From positions 11,661,001-11,725,000 of the forward strand of contig OY727095.1 in assembly GCA_963402885.1 (NCBI GenBank): a stretch of DNA of 64,000 nt, given 5' to 3'. Both the position numbers and the translations under genes were made by a program. A model generated the notes under the pieces. That model was not told where the DNA came from and did no database searches. It was given only the letters and a program-made list of their open reading frames with translations. This stretch comes from Antedon bifida. Lineage: Eukaryota; Echinodermata; Crinoidea; Comatulida; Antedonidae. This document shows, one piece after another, positions 4,246 to 23,900 of the stretch (position 1 is the stretch's first letter; every line of letters begins with the position of its first letter).

Positions 4246-7200
4246 GTATAAATATTATTACTCCTCAGATTTTGTACTACACTAAATTGAATTGTATAAC
4301 GCTAACCGTCGTACTACATGGAAATATATATATATCGAGAGTACAGAAAATAAAATAAAAATTAATTTGTCAACTTACGTGTTATATGCGGTACACCTAG
4401 ATTCATATATCCAAAGATACAATGATTTTTGTAACACCAACTCAACACAATTATGTGGGTTCGATACCGTCGGAATTCAGCAAATATAAATACCAATTTG
4501 ATCAATTGTCTTTGATACAGATGTAGGTCTACATTGACGACGAAATAGCCAGATGTAAAAAATAATATCAAACTATTGTATGCGTTCTCACTGCACGTAT
4601 ATAGGTCGCATACACGCTTGTCATATAAACAGAAACGGTTCAATATCCAATGAACATGTTAATTGATAAAAGATTGTCACTGCAACGCGTTCATTCGATA
4701 CCTGAGAAACGAAACCTCAACGTGTGTAAACGCACGAGCCTGAATTATTAAACTAGTTGCCTTCCGCGATTTATCAGACGATTACATTTCATCCCACCGA
4801 AACACAGCGATGGGATTGGATGGTTAACACTGAAATGAAATCCTGGCATCGCTAACTGGTCACCTCGGATGATTGACGCGGTATATTTTAAGCCTCACTT
4901 AACAGCGCGAGTCAAACTAAATTTGGTCGGATAATAATAAACAAAATAGAATTCGCCTTCTTTCATTTGACATTTTCTTAATATTAACGTAAGTGGGCGA
5001 TCAACCAGCTTATATCAAAAGCAGAAAATGCCAGCCCTACATGATTTTGTTAATAGAATCATCTATCTATACTTGTACTTATAGCTGTTAATGGCTGTCC
5101 ATTTATCACGCTGTTTCCTATTAACTTTAATTTATAGCACAATATTTCTTAACTTTGCTAAATGTAAACTATTTTATCGTAGCACTATTAAGCGGTGCAG
5201 TGTCACAACGATAATTGGATAATTGAAAAACAGATTTTTTTTTCCTGTGGTTCTACCATTATATAAAATATGGCGGGGGAATAAAATATTATGGACTAAG
5301 TAGAGGACATTATTTATTATGTTCGATTGGCTAAGTGACTGTCACAATAACTGTTTTCTAGAAATCAGAATTTTATCAAATTAGAAAATAAGATATACAG
5401 TAAAAGGGGGTACATTCGGGACTCAAAAGAGTGTCCCCTTAATAGAGAGGGAGTGACCGTGTTTAAATCATGGAGGTATTCATTTTATACTTCAATGTTT
5501 AAACCATATATTGACCTCCACAGGAAAGTTCCCCCTTAAATAGATGATGTCAACTGAATATGGGTATCCAAAAGGAAGGAGTCTATTGTATCTGTATTAA
5601 AATATTATATTATGTTCATCTTAATCTTTTTCTCAATTTTAAACATTGGAAAGTTACGTTTAGTTATTTCAGACGTTAAAATTGAAAAGGTGATATTTTT
5701 TTAATGCAGGTTAAATTTAAATTGAAGATGAGTATCATTTTACTTCTTATTTGCCAATATTACGATGAAGCGAGAATGCGTTTTATTCAACGATATTACT
5801 ACTTTCAACCATATAGGTCTAGTAATGTTCGTTAAAAATGTTCTTTATTATTACTGCTGAAACACCAACAAACATATTTTTAGTTATTGTTTGATATTCT
5901 AAAACTGTCTATATAAATAATCCTAAATTCTGAAATGTGGATAAAGTAAAGTGAATTCTTCTCTTGTTCATAGGCCCACAGCTTAGAATTCATATTCTAA
6001 CACCATTCATAACACGTTGTAAATATAGGTTAGCAATCTGTTGGATCAAACGCATTAAAAATGCTGAACCGTTCAATATTGCACTTCCTATGTTAATTAA
6101 TACCGCTGTATAAAATATCATATCAAGTATTCCGATATGTGTATTGCGTGTCAGAGTTGGATAATTTTAACTCCCCTGGGCGAAACGAATGAATTGTATA
6201 CACTACCTGATCAAAATGTATTTTGTATGTAATAACTGTATTGCCATTCTTATGTAACACAATTTTATTGCTCAAATTTTCAATTTAATCTGTAATGATT
6301 TATTTTAATACGATTCCCATGCGGAAACGTGGTTCACTTTTTTGTTTATAGGTGTTGTGATATTTGAGAGGGCGCTCTTAGTATAGTCATGGGATGGGAA
6401 TTTTGCTGATTTGCAGGCCAAATCGACTGCTTTGGTGAGAGATTTAGCTCCTTGGACTATAACGTAGTTTGGGGAGCTCCTGATCGACACGCCTAAAAAG
6501 ACTCGATGCATACAATATGAAACTAAAGTTACATTGGAACGAATGCCAAAAAGTGTTTCCGTGTAGGCCAACATCCATGTGCAGTCTTGTCAACTTTTCT
6601 GAAAAGGTCATACAATTAAAATTACATGTATCTGCTTCAACCATGAAGGTAAAAATGTACCTCCATGCTTCAACGCTATCGAAAAATAAGTGGGGTTACT
6701 ATCAATGTTGTGGGAAGTGTTTATATCCTATAATTAAAAATATAGGCCTAGATTGTAAAACCGGAGCTACCCTTTAAGCTTCAATTTTCACCTTGGGTAT
6801 GTTTCAGCGTTGACACCACATTCGGAAAACACCTTAAATAATGGGCAAATAATATAACCTAAATTCGTTTTGTCAATAACTAATTATCTAACAAGGCTTA
6901 ATTTGTTATACTGATTTGGAATTCATTAGATGAACCAAACTTGAATAAAATGTTTAAAAAAGAATTTAATTTGATTCAAGACTGGGTTTAATTTAAGGAA
7001 GTAAATGACGTTCTATCCAGAATAAACATCGTTTTCGTCATGTTTTTTTCATAGGCCCTCAGTATATATATGTAGATAAATGATAATGAAATATTATATA
7101 TAATTTTAACTATGCAAATAATAATGATAGTAATTAGATAACAGTACCTTATACATCAATTCATTATTTTTATCTTTTACACTGCATGTCTAAAGTACAT

Positions 7201-8799: not shown

Positions 8800-9002
8800 A
8801 TGATTACGCAGTCTACGCACAATTTAACGAAATCACGTTTGTAATCATATCTTCACAAGCATGAATCACAATTAAACCAAATTTTGTACTCATGCAGTTC
8901 AGGTCATATTTCATCATATGGCAATACAATTAGGCCTACGTGTGTAACGCATATAACATCCGGCCGTACGCGCGCTTAACATTTTGCAAAATTGTCGAAA
9001 AG
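8800..9002. repeat. Left copy of a ~200-bp direct repeat
   Basis: About 200 bp, matching 12136-12335 in the same orientation. Shared words include CACGTTTGTAATCATATCTT, CACAAGCATGAATCACAATT and TTTCATCATATGGCAATACA, and both end near AAAATTGTC. Differences are scattered substitutions and small indels. Between the two copies lies the intronless cyclin-like gene. The ends do not show clear TG...CA termini, so this is not an obvious LTR. Confidence 0.85.
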
Positions 9003-9284
9003 TGTGTGTATCATATGTATGATTTATTATGAAATTAAGATAACAAAAGTTGATTAAGTCATCATTAATTATGCATATTCAATTAAAAAAAATTAATTTC
9101 GACAATCAAACGAACTATGACTATCCGTGAAAGCACAAATGTGTGGTATAGTGTGCGATTGTAACTATGGTACAAGATGCGTGATGCTGTTAGCCATCTT
9201 GGTAACAGTTTGGTTACCAATGATGTTGACACCAGTCTACCACGATGAGGTAGCATCTCCGACTTCAGACTGGGATGTTTGTTT

Positions 9285-9800
9285 TTGTTTATTTTTTTTT
9301 TTTTTGGTTTTTTTGTTGTTTTTTGGTTTTTTTTTTAAATTCCTTATCGAGCTAAAACTTATATTAACTTAAATAAGAAAAGATTATTGAACAAATTACT
9401 TATTTTAATTATTTACTATACAATAATATAGGCCTAAAACCTATTATATACGAAATTAATAAGGGAAAATATTTTAATAATTACAATATTATTTTTTGGT
9501 TTTTTTAAAAATTATTTCTTACTAACTAAATCAACTTACGATAAAAAAAATTTTTTATTAAAATGTTTTATTAAAAATTTTTTTTTAGTTCTTACTAACT
9601 AAATATCATTAATAATTTTTTTTAAACTAATTTGTTTTTGTTTTTTCCTCCTTTTTTGTATTGCTTAATAACTAAAATCTTAGATTAACTTAATAAGGGG
9701 AATATTACTGAAACAAATTACTTATTTTAATTATTATTATCAATAATCTATTTTTAATTTATTATTGGTATTATTAATATCCTCCTTAGAGCTGTTTTTT
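9285..9800. other. Extremely AT-rich poly(T)-containing tract downstream of the cyclin-like gene
   Basis: Long T runs (for example 9292-9305) and A/T blocks dominate. On the minus strand, the sense strand of the neighbouring cyclin-like gene, this reads as A-rich sequence 0.3-0.7 kb past the stop codon, including an AATAAA at about 9755-9760. It may be the 3' UTR or decayed tail of that gene, or just low-complexity sequence. Confidence 0.5.
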
Positions 9801-10033: not shown

Positions 10034-11548
10034 TTAAGAACTATCGTCATTATTCTCAAAACAGAATGAGTCTTGTAATTCAAGTTTCTCAAGAATTGCG
10101 TTAATTATTAAGTAAGCTATTGCGGATGGCTTTACTGTTGTAAGAGATATTTTATTTGTAATCAAATATTTGACAGTTTCGTGTCTAACTCTTTCTATTC
10201 TTCGTTTGTTGTTGTTGGTTGTAGCTTTACTGATAGCAATATCGCAATAAATGTGAACAAAATCAAGACAAGTGACACTATTGATATTAAAGTTTACTAT
10301 CTGTAATATTTTAAATTCTATTTGGGCAATTTTTTTAGGATTAAAGAAGCCAAGATTCCGGAGGCGGTCACAAGCATAAGGGATGATGTGTTTAGATTGG
10401 TATCGTTCAGCACATTTCAATGCAAGGCAAAATGATGCAATTGCCAATTCTTCGAGATCTCCAAGTTCAAATGCTGTGTTATCACAGATTAGTACATTTT
10501 CTATAATTGTAAGGCTACGATGAACAATATCATAATCGATTATGTATTCATAACGTATGAGTTCAGATCGAATATTACATAAAAATTCTACCATATTATC
10601 TTTGACTGATTGTGATTCAAAATGTGCCCATGGATTTTCAGATATTTTTTCACGATTAATTAATGAATTAAAGTATTCTTTATTAGATTCAAGTTCAAAA
10701 TTTTCATTTGAAATGTCGTTAGAATTGTTATCACCACTACCTGGAAAATGAAACAAAACATCACCATTTCCTACTACTACAACAGTGCTACTATTACTAC
10801 TACCAGACTTTTCTCCTATGCTGCTACTGCCACTGCTGTTTCTACTAATACTACTAGTACTGTCACCACTACTGCTACTACTGCTATTGGGCATAGTGCT
10901 GCTGCTACAACTACTACTAGCTTCACTGCTGCTACTAATAATGATGTCACTATCACTACTACAATCACTACTTATTATGATAGGCATATCATTTGTATTT
11001 GGAGACAGTATTTGGTCTTCACTAGGCCAACTACTACTATCACTATCACTGCTGCTACTAATAATGATGTCACTATCACTACTGCTATCACTACTTACTA
11101 TGATAGGCATATCATTTGTATTTGGAGACAACATTTGATCTTCACTAGACCTACTACTACTATCACTATCACTGTTAATACTAATAATGATGTCACTATC
11201 ACTACTTCTATCACTACTTATTATGATAGGCATATTATTTGTATTTGGAGACAAAATGTGGTCGTCACTAGTAGGCCTATTTAACTCATGATTAAAATTA
11301 CAATAATTGATATCAGTTGATTTGTTTTCCGTTTTTATAAGTGTATCTAATTCGTGTAACTTACAAGTTGGGTTAACATTAGGGTTTCTTCTGACATAAG
11401 GACACCCCCTGTTTCTAGGCCTAGCCCTTCTATTCCTCACCTGGAGGAACCTAGCGTACTTAGCGGCGGGATACTCATTTGATCTCACCGCATTCTGGGC
11501 TTCTTCTAAAGAAGCATTGTATCTTCTTTTAAATATCAATTTTGCCAT
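10034..11548 (-). CDS. Intronless cyclin-fold protein with Ser/Asp-rich SIM-like repeats
   Basis: A single 504-codon open frame, far longer than anything else in this AT-rich region. The ATG at 11548 has G at -3 and +4. Residues 1-60 are basic (KRRY, RNRRARPRNRG), NLS-like. Residues 96-218 are three 41-residue repeats of form LSPNTNDMPIIISSD then SDSDIIISSSSDSDSSS, followed by a Ser-rich linker to about 255. Residues ~302-490 resemble cyclin boxes: LEELAIASFCLALKCAERY followed by KIAQIEFKILQIVNFNINSV. The Lys378/Glu411 pair occupies the positions that contact CDK in cyclins A/B. The second fold half (about 455-490) is divergent. The Ser runs are AGT/AGC-rich and leave other frames open too. 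The family call is from motifs only. The role is inferred as a CDK partner or a pseudo-cyclin adaptor. Absence of introns beside heavily spliced genes suggests a retrocopy or a transferred gene. I do not recognise an orthologue. Confidence 0.7.
   Translation of the reverse strand: MAKLIFKRRYNASLEEAQNAVRSNEYPAAKYARFLQVRNRRARPRNRGCPYVRRNPNVNPTCKLHELDTLIKTENKSTDINYCNFNHELNRPTSDDHILSPNTNNMPIIISSDRSSDSDIIISINSDSDSSSRSSEDQMLSPNTNDMPIIVSSDSSSDSDIIISSSSDSDSSSWPSEDQILSPNTNDMPIIISSDCSSDSDIIISSSSEASSSCSSSTMPNSSSSSSGDSTSSISRNSSGSSSIGEKSGSSNSSTVVVVGNGDVLFHFPGSGDNNSNDISNENFELESNKEYFNSLINREKISENPWAHFESQSVKDNMVEFLCNIRSELIRYEYIIDYDIVHRSLTIIENVLICDNTAFELGDLEELAIASFCLALKCAERYQSKHIIPYACDRLRNLGFFNPKKIAQIEFKILQIVNFNINSVTCLDFVHIYCDIAISKATTNNNKRRIERVRHETVKYLITNKISLTTVKPSAIAYLIINAILEKLELQDSFCFENNDDSS
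10895..11263 (-). repeat. Three in-frame 123-bp coding repeats in the cyclin-like gene
   Basis: Three tandem units of 123 bp encode 41 residues each (residues 96-136, 137-177, 178-218). Units 2 and 3 are nearly identical and unit 1 is slightly divergent. Each unit holds two hydrophobic triplets (III or IIV) embedded in Ser/Asp runs. The period is a multiple of three, so copy-number change would keep the frame. Confidence 0.9.
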
Positions 11549-12135
11549 AGCAGATGATGTAAGTATAGCAAACGTAATAGGAAATAGATGTATAGTATTT
11601 CCAAACTGAATTGCACGGTAAAAGCGGTTTTATTTCGTTTTAATGAAGAGCAATTTGAAATCTCTGTTCATCGATTGAAGAATTTTTCATTCTGACTTAA
11701 ATTTAGAATAGTCGTTAGTTATTTTCGAATATTTGATGACGTAACAATGGTTGCGCTGTTCTATTGTAAGCGCGGTGAGCGCACTAACTAGCCAATTGAA
11801 TACCACTATGTTACTAGCCCTTGGAAACTACATATCTCTTAAATGCGCGCACTACACAGCGTCAAAGGGGCGTTCTTTAGACTGGACAAACCAACATTTT
11901 TCTTTAAATAAAAACCAATAGTTCAACATTGGTTCATGTTGACATTAGATTATATGCATTATCATGCATATAACCTTATTGATTCTGTCATAATCTTTGT
12001 TTATTTATTCTTTCCTTAGCACTATTTTGTCCGTCAATTATCTTGATATCAGTTTCATCTAGCTAAGTCAATTTTTCAGAGTATATTCCTTATGGCCAGG
12101 AATCGAAGTGGTTATGTTTTCACGGTGCGCAATCA

Positions 12136-12335
12136 AAAATTACGCGGTCTACGCACGATTTAACAAAATCACGTTTGTAATCATATCTTCACAAGCATGA
12201 ATCACAATTAAACAAAATATGGTACTCATAAATTTCAGGTCATATTTCATCATATGGCAATACAATTACACGTAATTGTATGTAGCGCATATAACGCATG
12301 CGTACGCGCGTTTAAAATTTTCAAAATTGTCAAAA
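12136..12335. repeat. Right copy of the ~200-bp direct repeat
   Basis: Same-orientation partner of 8800-9002, beginning ATTACGCGGTCTACGCACGA and ending near CAAAATTGTCAAAA. Together the pair brackets about 3.1 kb containing the cyclin-like gene. It may be two independent insertions of one dispersed repeat, or a duplication that flanks a mobilised segment. Confidence 0.85.
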
Positions 12336-14925
12336 TCTATTTTCGATGAAATTAGAGTACGTTTCAGGCAATTTTAAGCCTTTAAAAGTGCGCAGATTTT
12401 TGCACGCGCGTTAAACATTATTATGCACTCTTTTTGCATCATATTTGATTCACTTTCAACTCGAAATTGCGTTATACGAGCACGTCAAAAGTGACAGGCT
12501 ACGCACGTGTAAGTTAACAAAATGGGGAAAATATGCTAAATTTTAAAATTAATATAGATCGTCAAAATTGTCTTTAAATTTAAATCTGACTGAAACCAAA
12601 ATAGCGTTATAATAAATAATACTAATACAATTTGTATCGCAAGTGATTATATTTTATTTTAAACAATAGATGTTTAAATAGGTTTGATTTAAATAACAGT
12701 TCTCGTAACATTGTATTAGATTAAAACATAACTGGTGGGATTTGCGAGGCCTGCAGGGTTAAAACAAATTCATACGTACAATACAAAATAGTCTTAAAAT
12801 AATGAAAATCATAAAATACGAAATTGGTCCGGCTTTTGTGATTGGAATCCCAAAATGAAGAATAACACTCAGGAGCAAAATAGGTACGTGGAAGATTTGA
12901 AAGCCGATTACATCAACAGCATCACGTGATTCCACTGAATCATCTATACATATAGGTTAGGAAAGCACTTGGGTTTGTAATAAGCGTGTAGTGTAACCAA
13001 CAACTATTATACATATAAGGAAGGGTTAGTCGTACCCGAAAGCTATGCAATTTCTTTCTATCTATTTTATTACTATAAATATCGTTTTGAGATTGAGATT
13101 CAGCCATTGATAGCCTACACACAGTCATTTTTCAGCAATTATATATTTTATATTGTAATAGTGGTTACAAACAATGTCGATATTTCAAGAACTAAATACG
13201 GCTAAGCGTTATTATCATGTGAAAGTATGATGTCCATACACAGCAATTTGACAACAGGATGCTGAGCTCCGGAGACATGATCAGTTCTAGCTTTAAATTA
13301 CATTTTTTCAGGTAAATCATTCTTTTTTTCGATCGAGCATTTGGTCAAAGTGAATAACTATTACGTGACTACGATGGCATATTCAACAAAAACTGTGACA
13401 AAAAATGTTAGGGGGACAATATATCTTTAAGCTCTAAAATTGAAATAAACACCGCGGTGGCGGGGAGTGTATCATAGGCCTTCTATACACTTGGGCTTTA
13501 CGGTGTAATAACAATACCGAAGCTATGAATTCATATTTTACAGTATACTATAGATATGTTAAAAGGCCTCCTGTGTCATTTCTTTGATAATTACAACTAT
13601 AAATTACAAATTCATTGATTTTAAATAAAAAAAAACACTTTTTTTTTAATTCTCTGAGTTTTTCTCGATCATTTCACATTATTATTCAGAATTAACACTG
13701 AGCGATTTACAATATCTCTTTTCACATTAAAATTTATACATGATAAATATATAAAATAACATATTGAACTTTGTCTCAACCGTAAGTGTTCAGACACGTT
13801 GCTTATAATTTACGATCTAATGTTGTTATTTTTATTGATACAAAATAGATTCATGTTATTCAAAATTTAAATCGTATGTCCATGATGCCCATAAATTAAA
13901 TTAGTGCATTATATAAATTAATAAAACATAATAATCATGTTTTTAAACTATTGGATGAATTAAAACAATTTTTGTATCAAAATATTTGTCATGAATTAAA
14001 ATTGCTAAAATGTCATTGATAAATAACTTACCACACAAATGGTATTGTTAGACTTATAGCTATGTCAATGGCTACCAGGTGTCTCTATGTATACGGTTAC
14101 CAGAACCAGTAGGCCTAGCAGTAAGACGGATAAAAATATGGCAACGAAAAACCGTATACTTAATAGGAAAATTCGATAACTACCTTTCATTTTAATGACA
14201 CGCCACAGAACTTAGGCAGCTATCGAGTCGAAAAGTCATTATTAGAATACATATGAAATGACTGTTAGACTCGCTAGCTGCGTAGTCGCTATGTGAAAAA
14301 AAGGTCTATTAGTACTCATTATAAAAAGTTTACTCAACGCCTAAACATACTCAAAGGTCATGTTTCCACAGTCTTACATTCACTCAGTCTTCCGCTCCGT
14401 GAAACAGAACAAGTGTGAACGTGGTATTAGGAAGGCTGTGATATATAGGCTAAAATGTTGGGCCTGCTAAATCTCTCGAAAACGGACATATTTTTACCTT
14501 TCAACTGTGTACACTTATAGTTGTTTCAATTATAGTTTAAACAACTGAATTCCCTGTTACTCAGAAATAGCATTGTACTCCTTTGTGCCAGAAACGTTGT
14601 GCAGTAAACTATTCCAAAACTAAACAGCTAAAAAATGAAAAGTCTCCTAAAGCAGACATCCTTTCATTATTCTTCAACAAAACATCAGATTTCCAGAAAG
14701 TTGATATTTCATTCGCTCAAGCTCCTGTGAATACTGTTCCGGCGAGCTCTTATATAGAAGCTTTAAAGTGGTGGAGAACGGAGCGGTGTAAATGGTTCCT
14801 CTGCTTTTCTTCTTTTTTTAGGTGCTATTTTATGATACTTTATGGATTTTTGTGTGTAAAGCGCTTATAAACATTGTATTATTATTCCATTTACTATCAA
14901 AGTGTTAATCCTTTCTTAGGCCAAA
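12336..14925. other. Intergenic region downstream of ABHD16A and upstream of the cyclin-like gene
   Basis: No gene is supported. It holds an end fragment of MITE family 3 at about 13290-13432, ending GTTAGGGGGACAATATATCTTTAA, and AT-rich filler. The open frame at 14583-14870 has no recognisable domain. The segment just below 14926 should contain the ABHD16A 3' UTR, but I see no clear AATAAA close to the stop. Confidence 0.6.
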
Positions 14926-17900: not shown

Positions 17901-20900
17901 CCAGATTTCCCTGAGCAGATATGCCAAAAATTTAAAAAAATTATCAAAAATATTCCTGATACAGTCCCTAAACGTGGAAATATCCCATCATTATGTTTGT
18001 TTTTTTATTAAGCTTTATATAAACGACTGCCTTTTAGCAAATCCTACAATCGAGAGAACAAGAGACCATCAGTTGCGTAAACCGACCATCATGATTTCTT
18101 AGGCAATGTGAAAGGAGTATAAGTTACTTACGTGCAAATTGTGGCATTTTGGCTGTAGCCAGCGGAACAAGGTCGTCGAAAGTAGCATCTAAAATCTAAT
18201 ATAAATATCATCATTACATTACATTATATACCATAATTTTTTGGAAACAATCATATACATAATATTTCTAAATCTCTGTCTACACTATCAAAGTTTACGC
18301 GACAAAAAAATGTGATGTGCCCATATATGGACATGATTTCATATCACTACCATATTTGGGCATATCACTACCATATTTGGTACTTTTTTGATAGTGTAGT
18401 AGACAGAGCTTAAGAAACAATGCACGTAGTCAAAGTGGTGAATGACAGTGCTGTACTTGCAAGGATGTTTTGCTTGATTGAAGGTTTTGTTAAAAAAACT
18501 AAAATAAATTGTTCAGGGTGTATGCACTCTATTAAAATATTGCTCCAGCCAAACAACTATAGGGGGATTCACCAAATATAGTCCGTCTTCATGTTACAAT
18601 TACCAACTATGTTTAGCCTGAGATATTGGCCTCTTGACAAAAGAGAGCTATTAACAATTCACTATTTTCAACACTAAGAACCAACTTACTAATGCATGTA
18701 TTTTAGGATAGTTCATAGCAGCTATTGAAGCTGTATAACCTCCAATAGACCAAGCATACACAATGATATCTGATATATGAAATCCTAGCTCTGTAGTAGC
18801 ATACTGCATCACTGCCTCTATGGCATTTGCCTCATTTTCTGGAAATGGATAACCCTAAAAGAAAAAGAAACATGGAAAGTGTAGAACTGATCATAGTATT
18901 TAAATCATTTTTTTTTCTTTTTAAGATTGTTAAAAAATATTGGATGCCCTGTCTGATATTTATTAGTACATTCATTGCTGGAAAAATAATGGTTTCTATT
19001 GCCCCTCAAACACTAGAGGGTGCTATATATTTATATTTCTTTTCTCGAGTATATCGTCCTACATCGAGTGACAGAGTACATATGGGTACACAGTTCAACC
19101 ATGGAGATTTCTCTGTGTTTCAACAGAATTGTAGCAGTTGATATTTACAATGACGATTTTTAATGATAGGACAGTGATTTACAATTTACTATTGGTAATC
19201 CTTGGCCACAAATGCATAAATACATAAAATAGGATCAGGATCAGATTGCATTTACTTTACTTGACACTATGCTGGAGATAAAGACAAATATAGTACACTG
19301 GAGCTACAGCTCTGAGAAGACTTGTTTTACCACAACAACCATAGACTGAATTGGCCCTAAACCCTATGATGAAGCAGATATGGTTTATAGCACTTCTGCC
19401 ATAAACTCTTTGGTCACCAACTTGGTCGATAATGTTGAGAAGTCATGGATGTGTGCTCACATTATTTCTGAATATCAAATATTGAACAAATTATCTTACT
19501 GTACTGCCTCCAAAGCCTGGATGGTTCCAACCCAAAATTGAATACTTTGCTAAAAAATAAATATTGGTAAATGATTTAGTAAAATAAAAAGATTACTGTG
19601 AGTATGCTTTTAAAATTGAAATTTTATTGGTAAACAAACTTTTCCATTCTCATTTTTGAGGACGATCAAAGTACATTGATCGAAACGTCAAACAAAATCA
19701 AAGTCTTTTCAGAACTATATTATGTGGTGTACCGCAAACTTTAAAACAAACTTCTTATTCAGCCATATTGATTTCCTATATTTCCAATGTTTTATAATAT
19801 AATGTTCACATAATATAATTTCACTATTTTTTTTGTAATTCCATAAGAGAAATTCCATACATATTCAAAGTATGGCCATTTGTGTGCATCCACATAGACC
19901 CTACCAATTACTCTGTAGAATTTGCAGACAAGCAGAAGACAATACTATCTAACAAATACTATCTAACAAATATAAACAAAATAAAGTAGGTATAGTTAAG
20001 TTGCTTACATTCTAAAGGTGCGGGCATGCATCCCACTTCATAATAGCCTGCATTGCCTTCACAACATATAACCTGGTATAAAGAAAAAGTTTATATATGT
20101 AAACACGAAATCAAATATTCCTAATCAAATTCCCATTTTGTCTTTAAAAAAAAATAAATCTGCAAGTCTGCAGTGGTAGAGATTGATAAAAATCAAGATC
20201 AAATCAAATAATATTATAGTCAAGGAAGTATAGATAATGGGTGAAAGGGAGGGTGGGAACAGTATCATGAGTGGCCTGGGTGGTGTAATGAAATTGGGCT
20301 GTGACGAGGGCCTTAACATAATTTCCATACAAGCATAATAATAATATTACATCCTTGCAGTCTATCATTAAAATAAGAATTTAAATAAATAAATAAAAAT
20401 TGATATTATTATTCAATATTATACTCATTCGATTTAAAGGATGGAATATAGAAGGGTGTGTCCATCATAAACAATCTTACCAACTTATCTCCATTTGAAT
20501 GTGCCACTCCTCGTGCATCTATAAACATGGTGTCAATCTGATTATTATCTCTTGTTATCAGCTTGGCACGAATTCCATTGTCTTTCTCCAATAGCTTCTT
20601 CCTTCCCTCTAGAAGTGATGGTCCTAAAATGGCACAGAATGATTGGTTAGCTTTAGCATTGTCAATATAATTTGTGTACGTATTCACTCATAACACACAA
20701 TCAGTATCCATTAAAATCGCTCATCACTCAGAATTGGGAAATCAACTCTTGTCTACTAAAAAAAGTAACTTTTTATCGAAAGACACAAACAAAAAGGCAC
20801 TACCAAACAGGGCAGCTATCAAGCAGGGCAACTAGCAAACAGAGCAACTACCAAACAGGGCAACTAGCAAACAGGGCAACTACCAAACAGGTCAACTACC

Positions 20901-23900
20901 AAACAAGGCAACTACCAAACAGGGCAAATACCAAACAGGGCAGCTACCAAAACAGGGCAACTACCCAACGGGGCAGCTACCCAACGGGGCAGCTACCCAA
21001 CCAGGCAGCTACCCAACAGGGCAACTACCAAACAGGGCAGCTACCCAACAGGGTAACTTCCAAACAGGGCAACTACCAAACAGGGCAACTACCCAACAGG
21101 GCAGCTACCCAACAGGGCAACTACCAAACAGGGCAGCTACCAAACAGGGCAGCTACCCAATAGGGCAGCTATCCAACTACACAAACCAATAGTGGTGTTA
21201 GTAGTCTGTGAGTGCTAGCTTACCTGGATAAACAGACAATAGCCCATGCTCTCCAGAGAGAGGGCTTAGATATGAAAGTAGAAAGTTCCTAGAACACCCC
21301 TGTACCATAATGCAACCACGCACGAAATAGACAAGGCAACTACCAAACAAAGCAACTACCAATATAATCTCCTTTTAGAGGTAGTTTTCTAACAGTAGTC
21401 CTAGGCTGCCTGTTCTCTTGGGGTTGTCCTAAGAGGGTTGTCGTCAGGATATGATACTAACCAACAGCTGCGTTGAGTAGTGCCGTGTGACCTGGGTAGA
21501 CAAGCCACCTTCCAAACGTGTTGATGAGACAGTAACTTATTACATCACATGGAAATTGTACTATTCTACTTAGTAAGCTTTTGGGTTTATTTGCTGTGCG
21601 TAGACTCACTCGCAAAGGCCTGCAAAGAAAGTTATTATTTAATCATAATAAAATCAATACAATTTCAGGAACATCAATTGGATATAAATTTAAAAAGCAT
21701 AAACAAACTAAACATTATTTTATCTAAGAACAAAAAAGTGATATTGTTGATTCAGTTTATAGACTTTTATTTGGCCAAAATATGTTATTTTGTCATAACA
21801 TGCCCATATTTGTCATTATTATGTCCATATATGATCATAATGAGCCATATTTGTCATTATTATGTCCATATTTGGTATTATATACTCACGGTTTATCTGT
21901 ATTGACAACAAAGTCTTCCTGCCAATGAGTAAACTCATAATCAAAATATTGCAACCTATGCTGTAAAGATACACAAACAGATTCAAGTTTTAAGCTCTGT
22001 CTACACTATCTTTGACAGAAAAAATTGTGATGTGCCCAAATATGGTAGTGATATGCCCAAATATAGTAGTGATATGACATCATCGTGTCCATATATGGAC
22101 ATATCATTTTTTGTCACATAAAGTTTGATAGTGTAGACAGGGCTTGATACAGAAACTGTGACCAATAAAACAAATAGTGATTTACAACTAAAAATGGTTA
22201 CTTATGATACACTACTAGTTTAATGACCTAAAACTTAAAATGAACTAAAAAAAACAATTGCATACATACCCTTACTTCATACAAATCACTGTTTCTGGCA
22301 CTGTGCAAAAACTTAAGAAAGTTTGTATAGTCAGGGTTCATGAATCTTCCAATACCTACAAAATAGATAAGAAAATGTAAATGAATGTATTAGAATATGT
22401 TATCTCATGACAGTAACAATAATGGTAAAGTCTCCACTACCTGTAATAGTTTGATGATGATTTACTTTATTCAGCATTTTGGAAATCAAGTATTAGAGAG
22501 GTTTCGCAATCTTACGAATACGATAACGAAAACAGATACGTCACGCACACGTATTCGTTTTCGTAAGCCATAAAAAAATCTGTTTCGCATGGCAACGAAA
22601 TAGTAAGGCGCGTCCAAAATATGACTGCGGTAAATTTGAGCGAAGCGCAGGTACGTGTTGCAGGGTGCTTGGCTGCCTAGGCCTAGCGTAACATCAAAGC
22701 GAGTGAGGACTTTAAAAACTACTATTTATAAAAATTGACTTGGCATTTTAGTAAATTACTTTAGTATTTATTACTTTCAATAAATCTATAATTATATTAT
22801 AATCATGAATCATTCCTGATTCAAATGCAAAATGTGCAAAATAGATCAAAAACTATACTCGTTTTGTAGTTACGAATACGACTGGTGATATTCGTCAACA
22901 CGAATATGCTTTACGAATATGAAATGGGGATCAGCTCAAAAGTTTCACAAATGTATGACGTATCCGTTTTCGTTATCGTATTCGTAAGGTTGCGAAACCT
23001 CCCTATTATTAGGGAGAATTCTCAATCTTATGAATATAACAATGAAAAGGTTATGTACAGTCAGCTATCCCAATACCAGGCACGTTTGGGCAGGCCTAAT
23101 ATATCTGGTTTTATCCTGGTATTCACTTCAGAATTTCTTTTAATGGTAAAAAAAAAGAATTTGGGTATTTCCAGAAAAGTCTGGTTTTGGGAGAGATGGC
23201 TGTATTACATTTTTAAACTTTTGAGCTGACCCCTGCTTCATATCAAAAAGTGTATTCATTTTTTACGAATACAGTTTGCTTTCTGATGTCAGTAAGAAAC
23301 AAATGTAATTAATTAATTTGGATACATTTTATCACTTTGCGTTGAATCAAGAATGCATAATATAGATAATTTATTGACAAGTCATTTATTCAAAATGTAT
23401 AATAAATAATATTAATGGTATCTATAGCAGCATTTTACATTATCAATAGAAGGAAGACAAACTGGACTAGACGATCTACCTTCAGGTGTTTGTTTTTATC
23501 AGTTGTGTTGTTATTAACAACACAACTGATAAAAACAAAATCCTGAAAGTTTGTTAAAATTTACCTCTCATAATTATCGATCCCATTAATATAACCAAGG
23601 CAATTCCAGTACAGTGTCCACAGCTGATCAATCCAGCTATTGTGAAGTATCCTAGAAAAGAAAGGATAAGAAAATCTAAATTCATTTTTCCTTTGTTTTA
23701 TAGTTTGATATACCTTGATCTACATCAGGCTACATCTGTCTGGCTGACAGAGCATTTTAAATATTTTATAATTCTATTTTAAAGATATATTGTCCCCCTA
23801 AAAATTATTTTTGTTTTGTTTGAATATTTCATTTTAATGTCACATAAATAGTTATTCACTTTGACCAAAAACTGGATAGAAAAAAAATTATTTACCTGCA

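Follow-up and report, generated by a model that had tools for sequence, protein, structure and literature searches.

A 64,000-nt stretch of the genome of the crinoid Antedon bifida (GenBank assembly GCA_963402885.1, contig OY727095.1, positions 11,661,001 to 11,725,000; the window hereafter) carries an intronless open reading frame (ORF) that belongs to a dispersed multicopy family. Our preferred reading, which we hold with moderate confidence and on the strength of sequence comparison, is that this is a lineage-specific intronless family of cyclin-like proteins with putative binding to cyclin-dependent kinases (CDK), that its transcripts would be cut by a ribozyme lying 3' of the coding frame, and that it went through a recent burst as a composite unit flanked on both sides by a repeat which we call X (X-gene-X). 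The single parts are of known kinds and the combination seems to be new as far as we found; a cyclin-like family joined to a 3' ribozyme of the hepatitis delta virus (HDV)-like type was not met with in searches of the open-access literature, where absence carries little weight. The family is also an example of a cyclin-like gene that has multiplied by dispersal of a whole unit, with its protein kept under constraint.

Family structure and selective constraint

The frame (10034..11548 in window positions, used throughout) reads from an ATG at 11548 to a stop at 10034 through 504 uninterrupted codons, as the initial annotation had it, and lies on the minus strand. That annotation described a single intronless cyclin-fold gene; the intronless frame is confirmed, and a search of the genome that the window comes from (315.6 Mb in 27 contigs) gave 45 matching stretches, which fall into 20 places that were fetched with their flanks, the window copy included. 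In a midpoint-rooted DNA tree the copies form a clade of four rows on chromosome C7 (support 100/100), a C12 clade of six rows (97/96) and a young clade of ten rows (95/92), poorly resolved inside, which is spread on seven chromosomes (C1, C7, C8, C9, C10, C11 and C14) and has the window copy as a member. Amino acid identity in the cyclin part is 94-98% inside the young clade, 86-90% between the young clade and two C12 copies, and 59-63% between the young clade and the C7 copies. We envisage a divergent cluster on C7 and a further clade on C12, and then a recent burst that would have given rise to the ten young copies spread over seven chromosomes.

In 11 of the 20 copies, eight of the ten young ones among them, the frame runs without a break from the conserved MAK(L/F) at its start across the cyclin part; the other nine lack a full-length unbroken frame, L022 being interrupted by 3.7 kb. 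The ratio of nonsynonymous to synonymous substitution rates (dN/dS) was calculated by the Nei-Gojobori method over residues 311-504 in 15 rows (nine young, two C12, four C7), with L019, L021, L022, L023 and L028 left out as broken. It was 0.22 between young copies (36 pairs, dS 0.073), 0.17 between young and C12 copies (18 pairs), 0.40 between young and C7 copies (36 pairs) and 0.32 among the C7 copies (six pairs). Selection seems to have kept the protein through its dispersal. Three origins had been put forward initially, namely a retrocopy, a transferred gene and a lineage-specific cell-cycle regulator, and the last is to be preferred because the family forms clades of its own, is constrained and lacks a close cyclin.

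Dispersal with repeat X

Repeat X is a dispersed sequence of ~1.43 kb with 1187 candidate places in the genome (40 scored). A truncated copy lies on the 5' side of the window gene (11950..12568, minus strand) and a copy with deletions on its 3' side (8803..9121, minus strand). Eight of the ten young copies have X on the 5' side (L009, L010, L012-L016 and L022; ~3.3 kb away in L016), and these eight together with L018 have it on the 3' side, while no X was found within the 10 kb fetched around L011, the six C12 copies and the four C7 copies. Where X begins on the 3' side, the junction is at the same place in the truncated unit L030 and in the six young copies, of the nine, in which it was read; on the 5' side the junction with the end of X was read in four of the eight. 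Outside the unit the flanks have no common sequence at E 1e-20, with two exceptions: L010 and L012, which lie on C9 with 13 kb between them, and scattered repeats no longer than 450 bp.

A block directly upstream of the ATG (11549..11773, minus strand) was found by sequence comparison in the four divergent C7 copies and in two of the six C12 copies (L017 and L023), and may represent the 5' untranslated region (UTR) and promoter. That ~200-225 bp upstream of the ATG are common to the unit and to all four C7 copies suggests that the promoter probably travels along with the unit. On the simplest reading it is as if a composite X-gene-X unit had moved as DNA, and this moving unit would consist of X, the upstream region, the ORF, the 3' region, the ribozyme and X again. 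X itself has the ends TAGGTTATATGCAT...ATGCATATAACCTA, with another hairpin AATTCGTCACTATGACGAATT at its 5' end, and was also seen in L033 and L034. One conceivable candidate is a Helitron/Helentron-borne capture of the gene, for which a Rep/helicase source and Helitron-type ends would be expected; the end sequences of X are inverted and its 3' hairpin ends in ...ATAACCTAAT. We considered whether X is a long terminal repeat element, which the two-sided flanking would fit, but X has no TG start and has inverted end sequences, and this candidate seems unlikely.

The same arrangement could also be that of a selfish or decaying repeat, carried along by X, whose copies have no function for the host. 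Eight young copies do sit between copies of X in flanks that are mostly unrelated, and almost half of the family, including L022, is without the full frame. The low dN/dS in the cyclin part (0.17-0.40 over all comparisons), the intact frames of eight of the ten young copies and the retention of the ribozyme core in old and young clades argue against it, and we judge it rather unlikely. A selfish element that needed its own protein would, however, give the same pattern of constraint, and selfishness and function may go together here.

A ribozyme-like element 3' of two gene families

HDV-like ribozymes are laid out as a double pseudoknot with a P3 helix of 3 bp, have a conserved L3 and carry the catalytic C of J4/2 in a CNRA context. 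A candidate of this kind, ~94 nt long, was recognized downstream of the window gene at 9180..9273 on the minus strand by cmscan, alignment and pattern search. Its helices are P1 (9267-9273/9232-9238), P2 (9252-9257/9183-9188), P3 (9249-9251/9239-9241) and P4 (9215-9225/9195-9204), and J4/2 is GCTAA (9190-9194), whose C at 9193 takes the position of the catalytic C. The 7 bp of P1, the 6 bp of P2 and the 3 bp of P3 are all paired in 18 distinct rows, and an HDV-like layout is described as having a P1 of 6-7 bp and a P2 of at least 5 bp in PMC3774820. With cmscan the element matches the Rfam model RF02682 (HDV-F-prausnitzii) from end to end, at 27.3 bits in the window, 29.6 bits on C7 and 26.0 bits on C10. 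In this alignment P1 is paired by other letters than those of the model, while the letters of P3, of L3 (UCAUCGU; TCATCGT in the DNA) and of J4/2 (GCUAA) agree with it.

The genome was searched with a 34-nt pattern allowing up to three mismatches, which gave 41 places, 36 identical and five with one mismatch; the reversed pattern gave none, and the 39 places found with a relaxed pattern are all inside the 41. The element stands behind 18 of the 20 cyclin-like copies, L019 and L028 having no complete one, and two more are in the truncated cyclin units L030 and L032. Another 20 lie on the same strand as, and ~0.4-1.7 kb past the ends of the protein matches of, a second multicopy family on chromosome C10 (four of these 20 elements were read), and the remaining one, at C12:20715152, is assigned to neither family. 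The 15 cyclin copies that were measured have 469-1362 nt between stop codon and P1. A stretch comprising the element (9174-9289, minus strand) is 86-98% identical at the 41 places, compared with only ~79% between young and C7 coding DNA. Its 48-nt 5' core is identical in 22 of 24 rows, and a 60-nt core differs by 0-1.1% between groups and by up to 1.3% within C7, while the P4 loop differs by 12-48% between groups.

Members of the C10 family (for example L029 1719-2609, minus strand, and L031 3493-4422, plus strand) contain repeats with CFxIHDTPELPSVDEMLDADRSC and are located on C10 at 8.8, 10.3-10.5, 22.0, 22.7 and 24.3 Mb, with the element 3' of the coding part. Searches of the family against Pfam gave no match over the cut-off, and the cyclin-like protein had no match in the fetched C10 stretches. 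Two elements 214 bp apart (C10:8853758 and C10:8853972) are found behind one C10-family gene, and the C12 copy L017 has at oriented position 6471 a second, incomplete element 352 bp before the complete one.

C7 and C10 copies have only ~150 bp in common, ending with the element. Just upstream of the element, a stem-loop of 8-12 bp was present in all seven of the nine C7/C10 sequences that were folded singly (z between -1.5 and -2.6 for six of them, -0.6 for the seventh), and by eye the stem is held by different letters in C7 (UUCUUCCC/GGGAAGAA) and in C10 (UUCUUUCC/GGAAAGAA); an automatic consensus fold yielded no base pairs, the MAFFT alignment behind it having one arm out of place. The young copies and most C12 copies have an A-rich tract in the position of the stem-loop, in the window directly upstream of the element (9278..9350, minus strand); none was seen in the C7 clade. 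This tract made a MALAT1-like triple helix one of the possibilities considered.

We propose a self-cleavage of the transcript immediately 5' of P1, before window position 9273 on the minus strand. The cut would fall behind the stem-loop in the C7 and C10 families and behind the A-rich tract in the young and most C12 copies, and the upstream fragment would be the mRNA, with either a stem-loop plus a short tail or an A-rich tract at its end. If so, the ribozyme may set the 3' ends of the mRNA or its level. A more far-reaching form of this proposal is that two otherwise unrelated families, the cyclin-like one and that on C10, form the 3' ends of their mRNAs by an HDV-like ribozyme rather than by standard cleavage and polyadenylation, and that the cyclin-like one was amplified as a mobile X-gene-X unit with its promoter, cyclin and ribozyme together; this we regard as possible but doubtful. 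If it were true, nature would have, in the near-invariant 3' ribozyme of two protein-coding families, its own version of the ribozyme-terminated constructs made in the laboratory, and the question of why hosts keep ribozymes would become testable in one animal.

Several observations weigh against self-cleavage. All three RF02682 scores (26.0-29.6 bits) are under the gathering score of 44, so that the element is not counted among the members of that Rfam family, and the window element, with an E of 0.04 in 4.5 kb, has an E of 0.57 over 64 kb. Covariation supports none of the helices, nor does it speak against them, as none of the 27 pairs changes on both sides; 20 never vary, and shuffled alignments score as high. 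A loose geometric descriptor was not significant by itself: it gave four starts on the two strands of the window, this element being one of them, compared with 11 in shuffled sequence of 512 kb (single strand). The P1 of HDV-like ribozymes usually begins with G, and that of the element begins with C. The core is more strongly conserved than the fold requires, which makes another role of the sequence, or homogenisation, possible. There are also AATAAA-like sites upstream of the element in the AT-rich 3' region, and so ordinary polyadenylation is possible.

An alternative is that the element, as a structured RNA or as a signal in the DNA, is not self-cutting and serves, for instance, in termination, RNA localisation or protein binding. 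Helices that hardly vary and show no double changes, together with the scores below the Rfam cut-off, would suit such a signal, as would a primary sequence far more conserved than that of the R2 ribozymes, in which little is conserved beyond the catalytic C and four other positions according to PMC3774820. On the other side, the Rfam alignment covers the ribozyme over its full length, P1 being paired by letters foreign to the model and P3, L3 and J4/2 agreeing in letters, and the P4 loop varies freely, as P4 does in the R2 ribozymes of the same source (PMC3774820). We consider a non-cutting signal unlikely and prefer a ribozyme that would cleave the transcripts of its host genes. Two further candidates were tried. 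A coding explanation of the 94 nt seems unlikely: the sense frame, CCA GTC TGA, stops at once, and one antisense frame is open, but by eye its third positions do not change more than the others. That the element is the 5' end of a retroelement lying downstream was rejected, since the ~150 bp shared by C7 and C10 end with it.

Comparison with known ribozymes

HDV-like ribozymes are known from retroelements, where they form the 5' end, from retroposons located in UTRs and from an intron. The ribozyme of Faecalibacterium prausnitzii (RF02682) has the same P1/P2/P3 layout, L3 and C-N-R-A in J4/2 as the element. The same holds for drz-spur-3, presumably of sea urchin origin to judge by its name. 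Five of the seven L3 letters of drz-spur-3, as given in PMC5984629, are the same as those of the element, and the sea urchin is among the hosts named in PMC8256844. The element differs from both in standing 0.5-1.4 kb 3' of coding frames, in a P1 that starts with C and in a core that is near-invariant over 41 places.

The R2 retrotransposon ribozyme has the same fold and is also found in animal genomes, but it lies on the 5' side of R2 (PMC3774820), whereas the Antedon bifida element lies 3' of a gene. The HDV-like ribozymes of the trypanosomatid L1Tc/ingi retroposons, among them the Leishmania SIDERs, lie like the element on the 3' side, in the 3' UTRs of protein-coding genes, and are linked to lower mRNA in PMC4035085. 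There the ribozyme is part of a retroposon spread over many genes (PMC4035085), while the Antedon bifida element goes with two gene families, and the C7 and C10 copies compared share nothing downstream of it. The CPEB3 ribozyme is likewise HDV-like and placed in a host gene; it cleaves itself and modulates the mRNA, and its inhibition raises the CPEB3 protein, as reported in PMC10919898. It differs in being intronic and confined to one gene.

The cyclin-like protein and its origin

The cyclin-like domain of the window protein comprises residues 289-504 (216 aa; 10037..10684, minus strand) and was assessed by profile search, family alignment and dN/dS. Pfam Cyclin_N aligns with residues 338-423 of the whole protein at 15.2 bits (E 0.018, cut-off 23) and with the 216-aa C-terminal part at 17.6 bits (E 0.0032), and it matches the C-terminal parts (209-235 aa) of all 15 family members tested at E <= 1, the best E being 2.9e-4. 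The profile evidence is thus weak for the window copy by itself and improves across the family. Lys378 and Glu411, which the initial annotation had read as the CDK-contacting pair of a cyclin box, were found at these residue numbers and are invariant in the 15 aligned members. We take them to correspond to the CDK-contact places of cyclin A, and the protein may bind a CDK through its cyclin box.

There is also evidence on the other side. The seven members with printed Cyclin_N scores reach 15.2-19.6 bits, all under the Pfam cut-off of 23, and Cyclin_C had no match in the Pfam search of the family protein. A family profile run against the PDB sequences finds only cyclin D1 (6p8e and 2w9z), at a best E of 0.38; phmmer searches of the PDB with two single members gave no match, and hhalign against two cyclins of the same genome gave probabilities under 2%. 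Cyclins consist of two five-helix folds; a structure model from the single sequence is poor, all helical with a predicted local distance difference test (pLDDT) score of 46, and its first Foldseek match, a CDK4-cyclin D1 chain, is not significant (E 1.3). The cyclin box is weakly supported, by a Cyclin_N match in every member tested and by the Lys/Glu pair, and we call the protein cyclin-like. Cyclin D1, the nearest by profile, aligns weakly with the family, Cyclin_N covering residues 338-423. Compared with cyclins, the family is intronless and multicopy, has a long N-terminal repeat array, scores below the cut-off and has no Cyclin_C match.

Because the sole cyclin match spans residues 338-423, the ~300 N-terminal residues have no cyclin match, as had been noted from the start. 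This half of the protein is rich in repeats. It opens with a basic stretch (residues 1-66, MAKLIFKRRY...RNRGCPYVRRN; 11351..11548, minus strand) that is recognisable in the C7 copies L025 and L027, and continues with 41-aa repeats whose number varies among copies. In the window, sequence comparison shows three of these in tandem, each ~123 bp long and with one PII(I/V)SSD motif (10905..11271, minus strand). All ten young copies have two to five of the motifs, against a shuffled mean of 0.01-0.06, and the strict pattern is found in none of the four C7 copies and in one of the two C12 copies tested. The motif resembles SUMO-interaction motifs, a likeness that we take as a lead only.

Viral cyclins are typically intronless and distant from all cyclins, traits that the family shares and that would fit a viral or other foreign origin followed by amplification. 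No relative was found in viral contigs, where 49 stretches matched by pattern and none was confirmed, and we think a foreign origin quite improbable; of the transferred gene suggested initially, transfer from an unsampled source is the form that is still possible. The relaxed ribozyme pattern matches 19 viral-contig stretches, as a pattern match only. A retrocopy of an ordinary intron-containing cyclin is highly improbable: the ORF has no introns and an A-rich tract lies downstream, but no intron-containing parent or paralogue is among the own-genome matches, the cyclin places of the genome are absent from the matches of the family search, the A-rich tract precedes the ribozyme inside the shared unit and is missing from the C7 clade as far as seen, and the copies share ~200-225 bp upstream of the frame. 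The open-access literature yielded no intronless or retrogene cyclins, absence there being weak evidence. We retain a lineage-specific regulator as the best of the proposed origins.

Other loci

Contig C27 of the genome carries COX1 and an ND1 that was read under mitochondrial code 9, in which AAA stands for Asn; with each of four other codes Lys takes that position. Code 9 is used by echinoderms and flatworms, and an echinoderm source would fit it. Other cyclin-like frames were noted in the genome. L035 (139-891, minus strand, in C8:20995900-20997000) has a one-piece frame of 251 codons with Cyclin_N at 118 bits and Cyclin_C, is cyclin D-like by eye and is possibly a retrocopy of cyclin D; L040, at C1:14.41 Mb, has a shorter cyclin D-like exon. 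Frames of 422 and 408 codons with Cyclin_N just over the cut-off, in L041 (1-999, C9:29907200-29908800) and at C9:29022109, perhaps represent a second intronless cyclin-like family. In the window itself, overlapping long open frames at 20657-21192 on the plus strand are built of a short repeat (QTGQLPNRA... units).
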